64,000 nucleotides of DNA, from the NCBI RefSeq assembly GCF_001428025.1, contig NZ_LMSC01000009.1, positions 133,896 through 197,895 on the forward strand, read 5' to 3'. Position numbers and translations under genes: made by a program. Source of the stretch: Phycicoccus sp. Soil748. GTDB lineage: Bacteria; Actinomycetota; Actinomycetes; Actinomycetales; Dermatophilaceae. The stretch's first letter is position 1. The number at the start of each line of letters is the position of its first letter. Shown here in pieces: positions 13,471 to 21,137 of this stretch. The notes under the pieces were generated by a model that worked only from the letters and a program-made list of their open reading frames with translations, was not told where the DNA came from and searched no databases.

Positions 13471-14307
13471 ATGAGCGCCCTCGTCGATGCCGCCGACCTG
13501 CGAGCCGAGCTCGCCCAGCCCTCCCCGCCCGTCGTCATCGACGTGCAGTGGGTCCTCACCGGCGCGCAGGGGCCGAGCGGCCGTGAGCGGTATGCCGCGG
13601 AGCACCTGCCCGGGGCCGCGTACGTCGACCTCGACGCCGAGCTCGCCGGCCCGCCAGGACCCCGTGGTAGGCACCCGCTGCCCGATCCCCAGGTCGTCGC
13701 GGCGGCGCTGCGGCGTGCCGGGGTCGACCAGGACAGCCGGGTGGTCGTGTACGACCAGGGGCCGTCCTTCGCGGCGGCACGCGCATGGTGGGTGCTGCGC
13801 TGGGTCGGGCTCCAGGACGTGCGGGTGCTCGACGGCGGGCTGTCCGCGTGGGTCGAGGACGGCGGGCCGACGACGGCCGAGGTCCCGGTGGCAGGCGCAG
13901 GCGCTTTCACCGCACGGCCGGGATCGCTACCCGTCCTCGACGCGGACGCAGCCGCGAAGGTCGCCCGCACGGGGACCCTGGTGGACGCGAGGGCGGCGGA
14001 ACGGTTCGCAGGGCTGTCCGAGCCGATCGACCCGGTGGCCGGCCACATCCCCGGCGCGGTCAATGCCCCGACGACCGACAACGCCCGACCCGACGGCAGG
14101 TTCCTCGAGCCGGCTGAGCTGCGGGAGCACTACTCCCGGTTGGGGATCGGCACCGCCAGCGCACCTGTGGGCGTCTACTGCGGCTCGGGCGTCACTGCCG
14201 CGCACGCCCTGCTGGCCATGCACGAGGCGGGCATCGACGCCGCGCTCTACGTCGGGTCGTGGAGCGAGTGGATCACCGACCCTGCCCGCCCGGTCGCCAC
14301 GGCCTGA
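13471..14307 (+). CDS. Sulfurtransferase with two rhodanese domains
   Basis: Thiosulfate or 3-mercaptopyruvate sulfurtransferase, 278 residues. The first rhodanese domain (about 1-140) ends with YDQGPSFAAARAWWVLRW and lacks a catalytic Cys, as normal for the tandem type. The second (about 155-275) has GHIPGAVNAP and the active-site loop VYCGSGVTAAHALLAM with its Cys. The loop CGSGVT rather than CRKGVT points to mercaptopyruvate type (CGSGVTA), though the assignment is not certain. The ATG at 13471 starts exactly at the conserved region. Confidence 0.9.
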   Translation: MSALVDAADLRAELAQPSPPVVIDVQWVLTGAQGPSGRERYAAEHLPGAAYVDLDAELAGPPGPRGRHPLPDPQVVAAALRRAGVDQDSRVVVYDQGPSFAAARAWWVLRWVGLQDVRVLDGGLSAWVEDGGPTTAEVPVAGAGAFTARPGSLPVLDADAAAKVARTGTLVDARAAERFAGLSEPIDPVAGHIPGAVNAPTTDNARPDGRFLEPAELREHYSRLGIGTASAPVGVYCGSGVTAAHALLAMHEAGIDAALYVGSWSEWITDPARPVATA

Positions 14308-14412
14308 CCGGCACCTGGGCGACGCCGCGCGGCCGGCGCCTCGTCCGCCACCCCACCCACGACGAAGGCGAGGGGCACTGCTCCTCGCCACTACCAAGGT
14401 ATAGCGCGACCG

Positions 14413-14432
14413 GGGGCTTGCGGCAAGGCCCC
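14413..14432 (+). promoter_or_regulatory. Rifamycin-associated element (RAE)
   Basis: The sequence GGGGCTTGCGGCAAGGCCCC, extended by further G/C pairs to 14410-14435. It is identical, as far as I recall it, to the 19-20-bp inverted repeat called RAE that sits upstream of rifampin-inactivating genes (glycosyltransferase, phosphotransferase, monooxygenase) and helR in actinomycetes and drives rifampin-inducible expression. It is 59 bp upstream of the FAD monooxygenase start. A TATAGC hexamer at 14399-14404 just before it could be part of the promoter. It also lies about 105 bp after the rhodanese stop, but its exact sequence argues against a plain terminator. Confidence 0.85.
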
Positions 14433-14490
14433 CGGGGTGCTCCACACTGGGCGGCCGTGCCCGGCGACGGGCGGTGACGAGCAGGGGGAG

Positions 14491-16002
14491 ATGAACGTGG
14501 TGGACATGGTGGACGTGGCGGTCGTGGGCGGCGGTCCGACGGGCCTGATGCTGGCTGGTGAGCTCGCCCTGGCAGGCGTCGACGTCGTGGTCCTGGAGCG
14601 TCGGCCGACAGCCGAGCTGCTGGGGTCACGCGCCGGTGGCTTCCACGCGCGCACGATCGAGATCCTCGACCAGCGGGGCATCGCCGAACGGTTCCTGGCC
14701 GAGGGCAAGACCTACGACGTGCCGTACTCGGGGCGGCTCATGCTCGACATGAGCGACTTCCCGACCCGGCACCCGTACACGCTCGGCCTGTGGCAGAACC
14801 ACATCGAGCGGATCCTGGCCGGCTGGGTCGAGGAGCTGGGCGTGCCGACCCGTCGCGGGGTCGAGGTCACGGGCCTCGTCGAGGGCGACGACGGTGTCGA
14901 CGTGCGGCTGAACGGCGGTGAGGGGGTGCGGGCGCAGTACGTCGTCGGCGCCGACGGTGGGCGCAGCGCGGTCCGCAAGGCCGCCGGGATCGAGTTCCCC
15001 GGGTGGGAGGCGACCCAGAGTGCGCTCATCGCCGAGGTCGAGGTCACCGAGGAGCTGCCCCAGGGCGTGAAGCTCGACGCCCACGGGGTGCACGGGCTCA
15101 GCTTCATGGAGAACGGGCACACCGTGCGGGTGGTCTCCGGCGAGGCAGAGCTGGGCGCCACGACCGAACCCACGCTGGCCGACCTCAGCGCCAACCTGCA
15201 GGCGGTCTACGGCACCGACTTCGGCGTCCACGACCCGACGTGGATCTCGAGGTTCACCGACGCGACCCGCCAGGCGGCGACGTACCGCAAGGGCAGGGTC
15301 CTGGTGGCCGGCGACGCTGCCCACATCCACTCCCCCGCCGGCGGTCAGGGCATCGGGCTCGGGGTCCAGGACGCGGTGAACCTGGGCTGGAAGCTCGCGC
15401 AGGTGGTGCACGGCGTCTCGCCCGAGACACTGCTCGACACCTACCACGCCGAGCGCCACCCGGCGGACGCCCGTGCGCTGGAGTACAGCAAGTCGGTCAG
15501 CGCGCTCCAGCGACAGGACGCCCGCATCGCGGCGGTGCGGGAGCTGCTGGACGAGCTGGTGGCCATGGACGAGCCGCGGCGCCACGTCGTGGGCATCATC
15601 TCCGGCCTCGACGTGCGCTACGACCTCGGCGAAGGACACCCGCTGCTGGGGCGGCGGATGCCCGACCTCGACCTGCAGGTCGGCGACGAGGTGGTGCGCG
15701 TCTACCCGCTGCTGCACTCGGCGCGTCCGGTGCTGGTCAACCTCGGACGGCCCGGAGCCCTGGACGTGGGCTGCTGGGCCGACCGGGTACAGCTCGTCGA
15801 CGCGTCGTACACAGGGCCATGGGAGCTGCCGGTGGTCGGTGCGGTCGAGGCGCCCCCCGCGGTGCTGGTGCGGCCTGACGGGCACGTGGCGTGGGTCGGC
15901 GACGGGACGGGTGCCGGGCTGGTGCAGGCGCTCACGACGTGGTTCGGGACGCCGTCGGGTGGGTCCGGCGCGGGTGCCGAGGAGGCGGCGCCAGGGGCCT
16001 AG
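14491..16002 (+). CDS. rox: FAD-dependent monooxygenase, probable rifampin monooxygenase
   Basis: Group A flavoprotein hydroxylase, 503 residues. The FAD/NADPH motifs are in order: GXGXXG-type VAVVGGGPTGLMLAGELALAG at about residue 10, DG motif VVGADGGRSAVRKAAG near 155, and GD motif VLVAGDAAHIHSPAGGQG near 272. The C-terminal part (DVRYDLGEGHPLLGRRMPDL and AVLVRPDGHVAWVGD) is typical of Rox/Iri-type rifampin monooxygenases, which hydroxylate the rifamycin naphthyl group and open the ansa ring. The RAE upstream supports that role strongly. Several starts are possible (ATG 14491, GTG 14497/14500, ATG 14506); GGGGGAG ending at 14490 favours 14497-14500. Confidence 0.85.
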   Translation: MNVVDMVDVAVVGGGPTGLMLAGELALAGVDVVVLERRPTAELLGSRAGGFHARTIEILDQRGIAERFLAEGKTYDVPYSGRLMLDMSDFPTRHPYTLGLWQNHIERILAGWVEELGVPTRRGVEVTGLVEGDDGVDVRLNGGEGVRAQYVVGADGGRSAVRKAAGIEFPGWEATQSALIAEVEVTEELPQGVKLDAHGVHGLSFMENGHTVRVVSGEAELGATTEPTLADLSANLQAVYGTDFGVHDPTWISRFTDATRQAATYRKGRVLVAGDAAHIHSPAGGQGIGLGVQDAVNLGWKLAQVVHGVSPETLLDTYHAERHPADARALEYSKSVSALQRQDARIAAVRELLDELVAMDEPRRHVVGIISGLDVRYDLGEGHPLLGRRMPDLDLQVGDEVVRVYPLLHSARPVLVNLGRPGALDVGCWADRVQLVDASYTGPWELPVVGAVEAPPAVLVRPDGHVAWVGDGTGAGLVQALTTWFGTPSGGSGAGAEEAAPGA

Positions 16003-16012
16003 GGTCGAGGTC

Positions 16013-16660
16013 GTGAGCGAGCGATCGACGTGGACCGTGACCACCCACGACTGGGCCTGCGACCTCGACGTCGAGCACCTCGCCGATGTGCGTCGCGGTG
16101 CGCGGACAGGGCAGGTCGGTGGGCAGGCGTGGGAGGTCGGCGGCCGAAGGCACCTGCTCCTCGAGGTGCTCGCGTACGCCGACGACGAGGCGCAGGCGCT
16201 GGGTCGGGTGGGCCGTGCGGTGGTCACGGAGCACGGCGACGGCTCGGTCACCGTGGCCGACGACGGGCGTGGCACCGACACCCGGGTGGACGCTGAGGGT
16301 CGCGTCGTCCGCAAGCCGGTGATGGCGACGCGGGACGTCAGGTTCTTCGACGCCGTCGACGGGCCCCGCCTGCCCGACGGCCTACCCAGGCGGGGGATGT
16401 CGACGGTGGCCGCCCTCAGCTCGGCGCTCGTGCACGAGAACCACCGGGTCGACGGCGCGTGGTCGCAGACCTACCGCCACGGCCTCCCCGACGACGAGCT
16501 GCTGCCGGTCACGCCGGGCGAGGGGCCGGTCACGCCGGGCGAGAGGTCGGGGACCTCGGTGAGGTTCCTGGCCGACGACCTGGCGGGTCCGCGGTCGCTG
16601 ACGGTCGAGGACCTCGGTGCGTTCACGTGGCTGCGCATCGAGGTGCGCAGCGGTTCCTAG
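16013..16660 (+). CDS. Stand-alone GyrB/ParE-like ATPase (GHKL) domain protein
   Basis: A 215-residue protein that aligns by eye only with the N-terminal ATPase domain of GyrB/ParE: DVEHLADVRRGARTG matches the region before the P-binding loop, DGSVTVADDGRGTDTR the DNGRG motif, RGMSTVAALSSALVHENHR the ATP-lid region, and GTSVRFLADD the GTTVRFWPD strand. The transducer and TOPRIM parts of GyrB are absent. In the EVVDNSIDEA motif the catalytic Glu is kept but the Mg-binding Asn is replaced (EVLAYADDEA), and the lid lacks GLHGVG, so ATP turnover is doubtful. The GTG start is 10 nt after the monooxygenase stop, so it probably shares its RAE-driven mRNA. Its stop overlaps the convergent regulator stop by 4 nt. 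Confidence 0.75.
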   Translation: MSERSTWTVTTHDWACDLDVEHLADVRRGARTGQVGGQAWEVGGRRHLLLEVLAYADDEAQALGRVGRAVVTEHGDGSVTVADDGRGTDTRVDAEGRVVRKPVMATRDVRFFDAVDGPRLPDGLPRRGMSTVAALSSALVHENHRVDGAWSQTYRHGLPDDELLPVTPGEGPVTPGERSGTSVRFLADDLAGPRSLTVEDLGAFTWLRIEVRSGS

Positions 16661-17265
16661 AGCCAGCCGAACTCGTCGGCGATGCGGACCGCGTCAGCCC
16701 GGTTGCGCGCCATGGTCTTGCCGATCGCCGAGGACAGGTGGTTGCGCACGGTGCCCTCCGAAAGGCTCACGTGGCGCGCGATGTCCGCGACCGAACCACC
16801 CCCCCGGGCGGCGAGCAGCACCTCGGTCTCCCGGGCGGTGAGCGGCGACTCCCCGCCGGAGAGCGAGTCGGCCGCGAGCGCGGGGTCGACCACGCGCAGC
16901 CCTGCGGCGACGCGGCGTACCGCCTCCGCGAGCTGGCGCGCCGGGGTGTCCTTGACGACGAACCCGCTCGCGCCGGCCTGCAGGGCGCGCCGCAGGAACC
17001 CCGGGCGGCCGAACGTCGTCACGATGAGCACCCGTACCCCCGGCAGCGCCTCGTGCAGCGCGGCGGTGGCGGCGATCCCGTCGAGGCCGGGCATCTCCAC
17101 GTCGACGAGGGCGACGTCCGGTGAGGTGCGACGGGCAGCCTCGACCACCTCGTCGCCGCGGCCCACCTCGGACACGACCTCCATGTCGGGCTCGAGCCCG
17201 AGCAGCGTCGCGAGGGCGCCGCGCACCAGGGCCTGGTCGTCGGCGAGGAGCAGCCTGATCGTCAC
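16657..17265 (-). CDS. LuxR/NarL-family response regulator
   Basis: A DNA-binding response regulator of 202 residues. The receiver domain has LLLADDQALVRGALATLL, the phosphoacceptor Asp in DVALVDVEMPGLDG near residue 53, and the conserved Lys in GFVVKDTPARQLAEAVR. A C-terminal LuxR HTH follows (LTARETEVLLAARGGGSVADIARHVSLSEGTVRNHLSSAIGKTMARNRADAVR). Its GTG start overlaps the kinase stop (GTGA), and the two form a DesK/DesR-type pair. A 44-bp element repeated upstream of the kinase gene and of the ABC exporter at 25-26.7 kb is the likely binding site. Confidence 0.93.
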   Translation of the reverse strand: MTIRLLLADDQALVRGALATLLGLEPDMEVVSEVGRGDEVVEAARRTSPDVALVDVEMPGLDGIAATAALHEALPGVRVLIVTTFGRPGFLRRALQAGASGFVVKDTPARQLAEAVRRVAAGLRVVDPALAADSLSGGESPLTARETEVLLAARGGGSVADIARHVSLSEGTVRNHLSSAIGKTMARNRADAVRIADEFGWL

Positions 17266-18572
17266 GCGTCCACCTTCTCACCGGGGTCGACTCCGCCGCC
17301 GACGGGTCGGGCCGCCGTGCGCACGGCGAGCTCGAACCCGTGCGGCACCAACCCCCGTGTCCGCAGGTGCGCCCCCGCCGCTTCGGCGCGCTCGGTGAGG
17401 CCGAGCAGGCCCGTGCCGGGTGTGCCGGGCACGGGCCCGGTGCCGTCGTCGCGCACGCAGATTCCGGTTTCGTCGAGGGTGACGCTGCAGGTGGTGGCTC
17501 CGCTGTGCCGGATCACGTTGGTGACGCCCTCGCGCAGGGTCCAGGCACACACCTCGCGCAGCCGGGTGGGTACGGCGTCGACGGCGGTGGGGAGGTCGGC
17601 CTCGATCCCGGCCGTGGCGAGGGCTGCCCGCGCGCGGGCGAGCTCGGCCGGCAGGGACATCTCGCGGAACCCGACCACCGCCTGGCGGACGTCTGCCAAG
17701 GCGTCGCGCGCGAGCCGCTCGAGGTCGGCGACCTCGGCGCGGGCCCGCTCGGGGCTGACCTCGAGGAGTCGGGCGGCGAGCTCGGCCTTGACCGTGATGA
17801 CGGTCAGACTGTGGCCGAGGATGTCGTGGACGTCGCGGGCCATCCGGTTGCGCTCCTCCTGGATGGCCAGCTGCGCGTTCTCCTGGCGCGCCTCGGCGAG
17901 GGCGCGCTGGCGCTGCGCCGCCACCATGGCCCCGGTGACGGCAGCCATGGCGAGGACCATGGACATGCTGATGCTCGCGTCGTGGGTCCAGGTGTCGACG
18001 TGGAAGGTGAGGAACTCGTAGAGGACCACCAGGACCAGGCCGAGGACCAGGCCCAGCCGCAGCCGGAACGTCCACAGCCCCGAGACCGCGAGGAAGACCC
18101 AGGTGCTGGCGCCCTCCTGTCCCACCGTGACGGTCGACAGGGCGGCCAGCACCGCCAGGCCCACCCAGGACAACAGCCCGACCCGGGAGACGTACCAGGT
18201 GCGCGGCGGAGTGCCCAGCGCCCCCCAGACGGCTCGACGCAGGTGCAGGAAGTGGGCGAGGTAGAGGACGACGAACGCGACGAGCACCGTCAGCGCCGTG
18301 TCCCCGCGCAGCTCGGTCCGGTCGCTCCACGCCGCGGAGAAGGCGTCGGAGAGGAACACGAGCCAGATGCCGGCGAAGAACACGCCGAGCAGGCGCCCGC
18401 TGAGCGGCTGGTCCTCGTCGCCGGTGAGCAGCCGGGGACGCGGCTCGGCGAACTCCTCGGCAGGCCGGGGCTCGGGGTGCGTGCTCACAGCCCCAAGCCT
18501 CGCAGAGTCGACCTCCGTCGCGGCGGCGAGTGCGGCGATCAGGCGCGAACGGAGCGTCGGCCGGGGCGCCAT
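17262..18572 (-). CDS. DesK-type sensor histidine kinase
   Basis: A membrane histidine kinase of 436 residues. About five to six membrane helices occupy residues 65-215; the HisKA_3 box has the phosphoacceptor His in EERNRMARDVHDILGHSLTV; the ATP-binding domain has REGVTNVIRHSGATTCSV (N box) and GTGLLGLTERAEAAGAHL (G box). I chose the ATG at 18572 with GAGG 7 nt upstream; a GTG at 18488 is an alternative. No extracellular sensor domain is present, so the membrane part is likely the sensor, as in lipid or antibiotic sensing kinases. The promoter region carries the 44-bp operator. Confidence 0.9.
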   Translation of the reverse strand: MAPRPTLRSRLIAALAAATEVDSARLGAVSTHPEPRPAEEFAEPRPRLLTGDEDQPLSGRLLGVFFAGIWLVFLSDAFSAAWSDRTELRGDTALTVLVAFVVLYLAHFLHLRRAVWGALGTPPRTWYVSRVGLLSWVGLAVLAALSTVTVGQEGASTWVFLAVSGLWTFRLRLGLVLGLVLVVLYEFLTFHVDTWTHDASISMSMVLAMAAVTGAMVAAQRQRALAEARQENAQLAIQEERNRMARDVHDILGHSLTVITVKAELAARLLEVSPERARAEVADLERLARDALADVRQAVVGFREMSLPAELARARAALATAGIEADLPTAVDAVPTRLREVCAWTLREGVTNVIRHSGATTCSVTLDETGICVRDDGTGPVPGTPGTGLLGLTERAEAAGAHLRTRGLVPHGFELAVRTAARPVGGGVDPGEKVDA

Positions 18573-18621: not shown

Positions 18622-18665
18622 GGACCCGCGACGCGCGTCACGACCTGGCCGTGACGTCTGTCAGG
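18622..18665 (-). promoter_or_regulatory. Copy 1 of a 44-bp operator-like element, upstream of the kinase gene
   Basis: Read on the minus strand it starts CCTGACAGACGTCA and continues with TCGTGACGC and CGTCGC. 36 of 44 positions are identical to 26768-26811, with no gaps. Within it are TGAC-N4-GTCA type dyads and CGTCA-N11-TGACG. It lies about 50 bp upstream of the kinase ATG and overlaps the last codon of the NAT gene. The duplication is directly seen; binding by the adjacent response regulator is inferred. Confidence 0.75.
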
Positions 18666-19494
18666 GATCCTTCAGCTTGTCCAGGAGGCGGCTGCGCTCG
18701 TCGGCCGTCAGCGGCACGCCCAGCGCGGTGAGCCACTCGTCGTGCTCTCCGGGGCGCAGGGGTCGGTGCTCGGTCGGCTGCCCGGGAGTGCGGATGGTCA
18801 GGGTCTCCTCGGTCACCGCGACATGGCTGCCGGACAGGTGCTTGGTGAGGATGAGTCCCTGCGTGAAGTGGGACCCGGGGAACGTGCTCGTGAAGTGGTG
18901 GCCCATGACCACGTCGACAGGCCGCACCTCGAGCTCGTCGGTCGTGTGGGTCACCTCCCAGCCCCCGTCGCGGTGCCGGTCCAGGGCCCAGCCACCTCGG
19001 GTGTGGCGCATGCGGTAGCGCCAGCCCGGCAGGTAGTCGTCCTCGGCCCCGTCGACCATCGGTATCGGGCGGCGCAGGCTCATGCCGAAGCCCGGGTCGC
19101 AGAGCAGTCGCTCCCCGTCGAGGACGACATCGACGACCATGTGCGTGCGGCCCTGCTGGCTGCCGGTCGTCGGGTCGCCAACCCGTCCCAGGTGGCGCCT
19201 GACGTCGTAGCCGAGGCGTTGCAGGGCGGCGGCGAAGATCGTGCTGTGCTCGAAGCAGTAGCCGCCACGGCCCCGGCCGACGAACTTCTCCTGCACCCGG
19301 TCGAGGGAGACGCCGGGGTGCTGGCCGAGGAACACGTCGATGTTGTCGAACGTGAAGGTGCGGACGTGCCGCTCGTGCAGCTCGGCGAGCGCTCCCCAGC
19401 TCGGGGCCACAGCCGGCAGCTGGAGACGGTGCAGGTAACCGGCCAGGTCGAGGCCGTCGGCCTGCCACTCGTCGGCGCCCGTGCTCACGGCCAC
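18661..19494 (-). CDS. nat: Arylamine N-acetyltransferase (NAT)
   Basis: Acetyl-CoA-dependent arylamine/arylhydrazine N-acetyltransferase, 277 residues. The Cys-His-Asp triad is visible: Cys in GRGGYCFEHSTIF, His in GRTHMVVDVV and Asp in LLCDPGFGMSLRRPIP. The N-terminal helical part begins LDLAGYLHRLQL. I chose the GTG at 19494 because GGAGGAG lies 6 nt upstream; the GTG six bases later is also possible. NATs can inactivate arylamine drugs such as isoniazid. It precedes the kinase/regulator genes on the same strand, but the operator between them suggests separate promoters. Confidence 0.92.
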   Translation of the reverse strand: MAVSTGADEWQADGLDLAGYLHRLQLPAVAPSWGALAELHERHVRTFTFDNIDVFLGQHPGVSLDRVQEKFVGRGRGGYCFEHSTIFAAALQRLGYDVRRHLGRVGDPTTGSQQGRTHMVVDVVLDGERLLCDPGFGMSLRRPIPMVDGAEDDYLPGWRYRMRHTRGGWALDRHRDGGWEVTHTTDELEVRPVDVVMGHHFTSTFPGSHFTQGLILTKHLSGSHVAVTEETLTIRTPGQPTEHRPLRPGEHDEWLTALGVPLTADERSRLLDKLKDP

Positions 19495-19522: not shown

Positions 19523-19957
19523 TCAGTCGAGGCAGAACTCGTTGCCCTCGACGTCCTGCATGACCAGGCACGACTCGTTCTCCTCGTCGGCCTCCAGCAG
19601 GCGCAGCCTGGTCGCGCCCAGCGGCAGAAGGCGAGCGCACTCGGCCTCAAGCGCGGCGAGGCGCTCCTCACCCACCATGCCCGTCCCGACGCGGACGTCG
19701 AGGTGCACGCGGTTCTTGACGACCTTGCCCTCGGGGACTCGCTGGAAGAACAGCCGTGGACCCGCTCCGTCCGGGTCGACGCAGGCGAAGGCGGAGTCCT
19801 GCTTCTCTGGCGGCAGGGACGCGTTGAAGTCGTCCCACGACTCGAACCCGGGCGGTGCGGGCGGGACGACGTACCCCAGTACCTCGCACCAGAAGCGGGC
19901 GACCCGCTCGGGCTGGGCGCAGTCGAAGGTGATCTGGACCTGCTTCACCGAAGGCAT
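19523..19957 (-). CDS. VOC-family (glyoxalase-like) protein
   Basis: A 144-residue vicinal-oxygen-chelate protein. The two paired beta-alpha-beta-beta-beta modules are recognisable: VQITFDCAQPERVARFWCEVLGY at the start, then KNRVHLDVRVG and LVMQDVEGNEFCLD at the end. It resembles actinobacterial glyoxalase-like proteins of unknown substrate. Members of this fold include resistance proteins and dioxygenases, so the reaction cannot be given. It is followed by NAT 28 bp downstream on the same strand. Confidence 0.85.
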   Translation of the reverse strand: MPSVKQVQITFDCAQPERVARFWCEVLGYVVPPAPPGFESWDDFNASLPPEKQDSAFACVDPDGAGPRLFFQRVPEGKVVKNRVHLDVRVGTGMVGEERLAALEAECARLLPLGATRLRLLEADEENESCLVMQDVEGNEFCLD

Positions 19958-20501: not shown

Positions 20502-21137
20502 ATGTCACGCACACGGATCCACAACTTCGCCATCTCGCTCGACGGCTTCGCCACGGGCGAGCCACAGACGCTCGAGACCCCGTTCGGCCATGCCGGCCAG
20601 CGGCTGCACACCTGGATGTTCGCCACGCAGTACTGGGATCCCAGCGGGAGCGACGGTGTCGACAACGCCTTCGCCCGACGCTTCGACCACGGCGTGGGGG
20701 CCGAGATCATGGGCGCCAACAAGTTCGGCCCGCCCGGCTGGGGGGACGACCCGGACTGGAAGGGCTGGTGGGGTCCGAACCCGCCCTTCCACACACCGAC
20801 CTTCGTCCTGACCCACCACCCGCGGCCCCCGATGGAGATGGAGGGCGGCACCACCTTCCACTTCCTCGACGCGACACCGGCCGAGGCGCTCGAGGTCGCC
20901 CGGGAGGCAGCCGGAGGGCTGGACGTCCGCATCGGCGGGGGTGCCACGGTCGTGCGCGAGTTCCTCCTGGCTGGCCTCGTCGACCACATGCACCTCGTCC
21001 AGGTGCCCATCGTGCTCGGCCGCGGCGTGCGCCTGTGGGACGGGCTCGAGGCCGTCGAGGAGGCGTTCGACGTCGAGACGGTCTCCTCCCCCAACGGCGT
21101 CACGCACCTCACGTTCTCCCGCAGGGCGGTCGCGTAG
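20502..21137 (+). CDS. Dihydrofolate reductase family (RibD C-terminal-like) protein
   Basis: A 211-residue NADPH-dependent reductase-like protein. It begins RIHNFAISLDGFATGEPQ, as is typical for the RibD-C/DHFR-like proteins common in actinobacteria, and has VRIGGGATVVREFLLAGLVDHMHLVQVPIVLGRG near residue 145. Neither folate nor riboflavin biosynthesis is implied by the neighbours; substrates of these single-domain paralogues are unknown. The ATG has GGAGAG 7 nt upstream. Confidence 0.88.
   Translation: MSRTRIHNFAISLDGFATGEPQTLETPFGHAGQRLHTWMFATQYWDPSGSDGVDNAFARRFDHGVGAEIMGANKFGPPGWGDDPDWKGWWGPNPPFHTPTFVLTHHPRPPMEMEGGTTFHFLDATPAEALEVAREAAGGLDVRIGGGATVVREFLLAGLVDHMHLVQVPIVLGRGVRLWDGLEAVEEAFDVETVSSPNGVTHLTFSRRAVA

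Follow-up and report, generated by a model that had tools for sequence, protein, structure and literature searches.

The window analysed here, i.e. the whole 64,000-nucleotide stretch of contig NZ_LMSC01000009.1 (positions 133,896 to 197,895, forward strand) of Phycicoccus sp. Soil748, contains an exact rifamycin-associated element (RAE), followed by a gene for a flavin adenine dinucleotide (FAD) monooxygenase similar to the rifampin monooxygenases (Rox) and then by a gene for a stand-alone protein resembling the ATPase domain of the gyrase subunit GyrB (Table 1). That this second gene encodes a GyrB/ParE ATPase-like domain alone and begins ten bases past the monooxygenase, as the original prediction had it, is borne out by domain searches and by the coordinates, which place the rox stop codon, TAG, at 16000–16002 and leave 10 bases before the GTG start. 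The open reading frame is a real gene, since its homologues align full-length from the same start; at its 3′ end it shares 4 bp with a response-regulator gene that converges on it. The original prediction went further and took the two genes for one RAE-led operon. Comparison with other genomes leads us to consider it highly probable that the RAE–rox unit and the GyrB-like gene are two independent things side by side.

Table 1. Features of the RAE–rox region of the window, followed by fused forms of the GyrB-like protein at other loci
Feature	Position	Strand	Basis
-10-like box TATAGC of the upstream P1-like promoter, 7 bp 5′ of the RAE	14400-14405	+	by-eye comparison
RAE, exact, GGGGCTTGCGGCAAGGCCCC	14413-14432	+	pattern match in window and genome
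TTGCGG within the RAE, candidate -35 of a P2-like promoter	14418-14423	+	sequence; part of PMC10719064
CACACT, candidate -10 of a P2-like promoter	14443-14448	+	inference; missed by sigma-70 scan
Rox-like FAD monooxygenase, 503 amino acids, FAD_binding_3 + Rng_hyd_C	14491-16002	+	Pfam, NCBIfam and PDB matches
-10-like box TAGGGT, 7 nt before the GyrB-like start; its TAG is the rox stop codon	16000-16005	+	sequence, family comparison
Stand-alone GyrB-ATPase-like protein, 215 amino acids, GTG start	16013-16660	+	NCBIfam, PDB, homologues, fold
GNAT before the GyrB-like domain, in frame	L037 6382-7509; L166 4624-5745
GNAT after the GyrB-like domain, with a weak sub-threshold polyketide-cyclase-like domain before it	L160 4623-6011
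APH-like domain after the GyrB-like domain	L045 5633-6955
DUF3626 before the GyrB-like domain	L165 5112-6581; L163, L169 (same genus)		Pfam (L165); resemblance (L163, L169)

Matches to the RAE at up to three mismatches are expected 0.03 times per window in shuffled sequence, and at the same tolerance the whole 3.97-Mb host genome has a single RAE, besides its palindrome on the opposite strand. The claim of an exact RAE ahead of the monooxygenase was correct, with the spacing to the ATG at 14491 being 58 bp where 59 had been given. At up to one mismatch the element occurs at 48 sites in 45 of 247 genomes, the host included, while a reversed-pattern control matched in one genome of the table. 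We read 44 of these 48 sites, the window among them; the gene directly 3′ of the RAE is a HelR homologue at 30, a Rox-like gene at 11 (again counting the window) and neither at three. The HelR reference used, from locus L075, passes the NCBIfam HelR model although it is a fragment (761 versus 750). The 10 other RAE-led rox-like genes are 42–81% identical to the gene of the window, and three of them come from other species of the host genus (genomes G005, G006 and G010; ~68–82%). Part of one study (PMC10719064) lists rox and helR of Streptomyces venezuelae, helD/helR of Mycobacterium abscessus and rgt as RAE-led. With such known rifamycin resistance genes the window shares the exact palindrome, an upstream promoter-like block and a Rox-like first gene; it differs in having a second gene 10 bp behind rox and in that its RAE is the sole one of the genome. 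Its RAE–rox unit is thus, as far as sequence comparison goes, an instance of an already known arrangement, and the comparison supports the view that the element is a genuine RAE, placed as in its relatives ahead of rox or helR.

Three RAE sites at up to one mismatch (L056, L061 and L066) have no helR, rox or rph in the bases read, and possibly mark new RAE genes or chance sites. The host genome itself has two HelD/HelR-like matches, at G000:C8:180585-181559 and G000:C1:197657-198949 (40% and 34% identical to HelR, respectively), and lacks an RAE-led helR because its sole RAE precedes rox. An 80% homologue of the gene at 20502–21137 of the window adjoins rox in G010, which indicates a rearranged interval between rox and that gene in the window.

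The sequence around the RAE is also shared more widely. By eye, a TATAGCG-like block stands at the equivalent position in many RAE loci, a CCACTTCCAACGTATAGCG-like block lies 5′ of many RAEs and a CAGAAT-like box 3′ of them; where the window has CACACT, many other loci have CAGAAT or CAGACT. A dual-promoter architecture for RAE genes, where the RAE and the -35 of the second promoter overlap, is described in part of PMC10719064, which gives the two-promoter layout for class II helD; a passage of PMC12802891 has the regulatory mechanism of the RAE still to be elucidated. The TATAGC and CACACT boxes of the window resemble those of other RAE loci and would agree with the two-promoter layout.

The monooxygenase was called a rifampin monooxygenase in the original prediction, a name that is probably right. 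Its best PDB relatives are the rifampin monooxygenases RIFMO and Rox (5kow, E 4.5e-111; 5vqb, E 1.2e-109), with which it shares near full-length alignment and the FAD_binding_3 and Rng_hyd_C domains, but it falls under the cut-off of the NCBIfam model NF033145 rif_monoox (481.4 versus 800) and passes instead that of PRK06834, an unnamed subfamily (761 versus 625). Because of this missed cut-off, and because the polyketide oxygenase 4k2x is nearly as good a match (E 2.1e-108), we term the enzyme ‘Rox-like’. The same scores and the closeness of 4k2x could be taken to mean that it is a related aromatic hydroxylase rather than a Rox, with the RAE coincidental; we regard this as very improbable, given that the best solved relatives are rifampin monooxygenases and that homologues (42–81% identity) stand in 10 other RAE-led loci. 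By sequence, then, the enzyme is a probable rifampin monooxygenase. By eye, an arylamine N-acetyltransferase-like gene (window 18661–19494) lies a few genes from rox.

Turning to the pairing, we looked for it from both sides. No GyrB-like gene was present in any of 20 RAE loci of 5.5–7 kb, which included the 10 other RAE–rox loci (~5–6 kb downstream), three of them in the host genus. Conversely, we scanned the GyrB-like family at 76 loci besides the window, with a median flank of ~6 kb and a minimum of ~1 kb where contigs end, for RAE (up to three mismatches), Rox, HelR and Rph, and none contained RAE–rox. Rox-like genes lacking an RAE turned up at L201 (41% identical, 4–5 kb off, opposite strand) and at L128 (28% identical). 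A conserved operon is accordingly rejected (0/10 and 0/76), and the proposal that the GyrB-like protein is a new kind of RAE-controlled protein finds no support: it was to fall if the gene pair occurred by chance in a single strain, and the comparison shows just that. Nor is the RAE markedly commoner where the family gene is present, with 3 of 11 genomes having the GyrB-like gene and 20 of 87 lacking it carrying an RAE (98 shared genomes, hand count).

The proposed shared transcript fares better in one respect. The two genes are on the same strand with a 10-bp gap, and a scan found no terminator-like site between them, so that read-through from the RAE promoter into the GyrB-like gene is expected; the GyrB-like gene has, however, a -10-like box of its own as well. 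Read-through is therefore likely, judging from the layout, yet seemingly incidental, and the adjacency of rox and the GyrB-like gene is itself most likely incidental to this species. One could still picture a functional RAE operon whose GyrB-like protein responds to stalled RNA polymerase by adjusting supercoiling or gyrase, on the grounds of the exact RAE upstream, the close and uninterrupted gene order and two Streptomyces-like genomes in which a family gene lies ~5 kb from an RAE-led rifamycin phosphotransferase gene (rph), but with the pair missing from every other RAE–rox and family locus, the RAE about equally common with and without the gene and a -10-like box directly ahead of it, we think there is little chance of this.

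A probable promoter of its own also speaks for the independence of the GyrB-like gene. According to part of PMC3160421, TANNNT-like boxes ~10–12 bp upstream mark leaderless genes, which make up ~19% of actinobacterial genes on average. In the window the first T of TAGGGT is 13 nt before the GyrB-like GTG. With family starts set by homology and those of control genes taken from a codon-usage caller, 11 of 27 family members have TANNNT at 6–7 nt from the start, versus 40 of 331 other genes of the same loci and of control loci (Fisher p 4e-4); for NANNNT the counts are 19 of 27 versus 80 of 331 (Fisher p 2e-6). No other single distance, out to 49 nt, has the box in more than two of the 27. The pattern was first noticed in part of this first set, and a Streptomyces-like set (L200–L237) was fetched later as a repeat: here 31 of the 34 members have NANNNT at a distance of exactly 6 nt from the start, mostly as [GC]ATACT, and none has TANNNT proper at 6–7 nt. 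Such a uniform [GC]ATACT-like box suggests a specific leaderless promoter in L200–L237, and the GyrB-like gene probably has its own transcript from a promoter of leaderless type, to judge by the conserved box and its distance. With such a box, the gene could keep up its basal expression independently of the RAE.

Several points weigh against this account as a whole. With regard to the promoters, a sigma-70 scan of 14250–17300, which demands a -35 box, returned zero promoter-like sites; the spacing of the box in the window is 7 nt where the modal value is 6; and AGGG, 8 nt before the GyrB-like start, is a possible Shine–Dalgarno sequence on a polycistronic mRNA. In the counts above, the codon-usage starts of the control genes lower the control rate, and the Fisher values overstate independence, the family members being related. 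With regard to the pairing, sampling was of one genome per species and could have overlooked an uncommon clade that has the pair, and on one side a few family loci extend for only 1–2 kb. Two orthologous Streptomyces-like loci, L176 (genome G263) and L219 (G754), also faintly suggest a link with rifamycin resistance: in both an RAE with one mismatch lies ~5 kb upstream of the GyrB-like gene. At L176 the RAE-led gene scores 1611 with the rifamycin phosphotransferase model, above its cut-off of 999, and the copy in L219 is 93% identical; between rph and the GyrB-like gene L176 has an opposite-strand gene, an acetyltransferase-like gene and a confirmed acetyltransferase gene. This neighbourhood is near chance level: at the density of the element (79 sites in 61 genomes; 48 sites in 247), we estimate that such an arrangement would arise ~0.1 times by chance over all loci, and one was seen. 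Lastly, we infer read-through and rifampicin induction, and the residue roles discussed below are transferred from GyrB.

The protein that lies behind rox in this genome belongs to a family of its own. Its GyrB-type match in NCBIfam has an E-value of 8.5e-13, and the GyrB/ParE models (625–803 positions) are matched between positions 18 and 178 only; GyrB 24-kDa domains in the PDB match at E about 3e-11, and Pfam gives a sub-threshold HATPase_c match alone (E 0.15). An AlphaFold model has a mean predicted local distance difference test score (pLDDT) of 79 and, when searched with Foldseek, finds GyrB 24-kDa structures best (E 3.8e-12, template modelling score about 0.6), which supports a GyrB-like fold on the strength of the model; part of residues 101–110 has a pLDDT of about 50. 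Common to the window protein and the 24-kDa ATPase domain of GyrB/ParE are the fold, the order of motifs and the equivalents of Glu42, Asp73, Gly75, Arg76, Gly77, Arg136 and Thr165, whereas the window protein stands alone, has Tyr55 in place of Asn46 and GLPRRG in place of the lid GLHGVG, and is without the RPGMYIG motif, the transducer, the TOPRIM and the C-terminal domain. Among the curated models of Pfam, NCBIfam, PADLOC and PHROGs only partial or weak gyrase-type matches were returned, and searches of the openly licensed PMC literature, judged by their listings, yielded nothing on the family or on gyrase-like genes behind an RAE.

A class-wide search separates the family from true GyrB, with members at 248 bits or more and GyrBs at 85 or less, a few later members scoring 146–228. 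Counting the reference genomes, the gene is present in 27 of 186 genomes of the host family, 2 of 11 of the host genus and 40 of 295 of a Streptomyces-like genus, and it is carried by Streptomyces and Pseudonocardia plasmids, under the labels ‘ATP-binding protein’, ‘hypothetical protein’ or ‘DNA gyrase’. Ten actinobacterial entries labelled ‘ATP-binding protein’ or ‘DNA gyrase’ (H1–H10) belong to the same family at 53–59% identity but differ in having other neighbours, in the three that were read, and no RAE–rox. The patchy distribution and the plasmid carriage suggest an accessory gene spread by gene transfer. Genome G026 has two GyrB-like copies (contigs C38 and C1; L038 and L039), one of them broken by a stop codon. 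An origin in defence systems or phages was rejected: PADLOC returned 0 families at E ≤1, PHROGs only weak matches, of which one is a topoisomerase II, and the matches in phage records reach 32–34% identity only and are named gyrase where annotated.

The active site is where the family departs most uniformly from its relatives. In GyrB, Asn46 binds magnesium, Glu42 is the general base, Asp73 contacts adenine and aminocoumarins, and Arg136 contacts aminocoumarins. We compared 73 aligned family rows with 21 GyrB/ParE controls of related genomes, picked without motif selection. The position of Asn46 is Tyr (Tyr55 in the window protein) in 73 of 73 rows and Asn in all 21 controls, while the equivalents of Glu42 (E51) and Asp73 (D83) are kept in all 73 rows and all 21 controls. 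Those of Glu50, Gly75, Arg76 and Gly77 are invariant across the 73 rows; that of Arg136 (R145) is Arg in 71 (controls: Arg 12, Gln 9) and that of Thr165 (T181) is Thr in 70. Ile78, present in 21/21 controls, is Thr in 73/73 rows, and the Pro79 position is Asp. In the lid, the H116 position is Pro in 62 rows, Ala in six, Ser in two, Ile and Leu in one each and a gap in one, versus His in all controls, and the G117 position (Arg126) is Arg in 71 of 73 rows versus Gly in all controls. Arg110, near GyrB Lys103, is kept in 72 of 73 rows.

A gene in decay was rejected, the same changes being fixed across the family. ‘Degenerate’, the word first used for the domain, is thus apt for the altered Asn46 equivalent and ATP lid but wrong if decay is meant. 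Being fixed over such a spread, the residue changes suggest selection for an altered function. Our best guess, from analogy with GyrB, is a ligand-binding, non-cycling GHKL module; more specifically, and only tentatively, the protein could bind nucleotide or a drug of the GyrB pocket without running the gyrase cycle. The invariance of the catalytic Glu42 equivalent and the near-invariance of Arg126 and Arg110 might alternatively mean that the protein is a small GHKL enzyme which still works as an ATPase, its phosphate site re-built with Arg126 in the place of Gly117 and Arg110 close to that of Lys103, and which serves as a switch or regulates GyrB. We hold this to be possible, though on balance doubtful, for the magnesium-binding Asn is lost in every row and the lid His in every row with a residue there, there is no transducer lysine domain, and the structural model is only moderately confident.

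Some members of the family occur as fusions (Table 1), and these raise the question of a role in handling drugs. In a Pfam tally of family neighbours (n=131), MFS was found seven times, ABC six, GNAT and VOC four each, and APH and NUDIX three each, versus MFS three and ABC two in a control tally (n=122 proteins), in which GNAT, VOC, APH and NUDIX are absent among the 25 families listed. The excess of transporters, GNAT, VOC and APH gives a hint, though no proof, of small-molecule chemistry. As for a constant neighbour, the first 13 loci, searched within 4.5 kb, gave clusters of two loci at most, the GyrB-like gene itself apart; by eye, L208/L211 and L222/L226 have an adjacent gene in common, as expected from common descent. 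By eye too, VOC/glyoxalase-like proteins alike to one another are encoded near the GyrB-like gene in the window (19523–19957) and in L176 (+2063 to +2497 from the start).

These data could be read to give the family an accessory role in drug handling, as a mimic of the GyrB pocket that captures ATP-competitive gyrase inhibitors of the aminocoumarin type and works alongside modifying enzymes or in one chain with them. The in-frame fusions (three to GNAT, one to an APH-like domain and, for DUF3626, one confirmed and two by resemblance), the neighbour tally, and the retained equivalents of Asp73, Arg136, Gly77 and Thr165, all of which take part in aminocoumarin binding, speak for it. Asn46 is a drug contact as well, however, and is Tyr throughout, with Thr and Asp at Ile78 and Pro79; GNAT, ABC and MFS genes are abundant in any case, and the tally lacks independence in that some of its loci come from related species. 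Insertion at gene ends might also give rise to fusions, and inspection by eye of the adjacent genes at the 38 Streptomyces-like loci fetched later showed no drug enzyme recurring as a partner. We therefore consider a drug-handling role unlikely. Bolder still, and less probable, would be the view that the GyrB-like proteins are an unnamed family of transferable stand-alone gyrase-pocket mimics that bind ATP-site gyrase inhibitors with no gyrase cycle and work with acetyltransferases, phosphotransferases or other modifying enzymes, at times within a single chain, and that the position behind RAE–rox joins one of them to rifampicin sensing in this genome.

Returning to two independent units side by side, the events at this locus might run as follows. 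Exposure to rifampicin would raise the output of the RAE promoter, and the Rox-like enzyme would oxidise the drug; the association of the RAE with its gene comes from our comparison, and induction and chemistry are assigned on the basis of the literature. A patchy accessory GyrB-like gene would have ended up 10 bp behind rox, a placement known so far from this genome alone, where it would run from its own promoter of leaderless type, the -10 box of which shares the rox stop codon. Read-through from the RAE would probably raise the level of the GyrB-like protein under rifampicin, as a by-product of position.

For the biology of the host and its relatives, the analysis removes a tempting claim of gyrase control in the rifamycin response and gives a clearer view of the RAE regulon in the host’s group, in which 41 of the 44 sites read lead helR or rox. 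A by-product is perhaps weightier, namely that actinobacteria have a conserved family of GyrB-ATPase-like proteins which stand alone, show a fixed change in the active site, are encoded behind a promoter of apparently leaderless type and in some members are fused to acetyltransferase or phosphotransferase-like domains; simple binding tests could be applied to this family.

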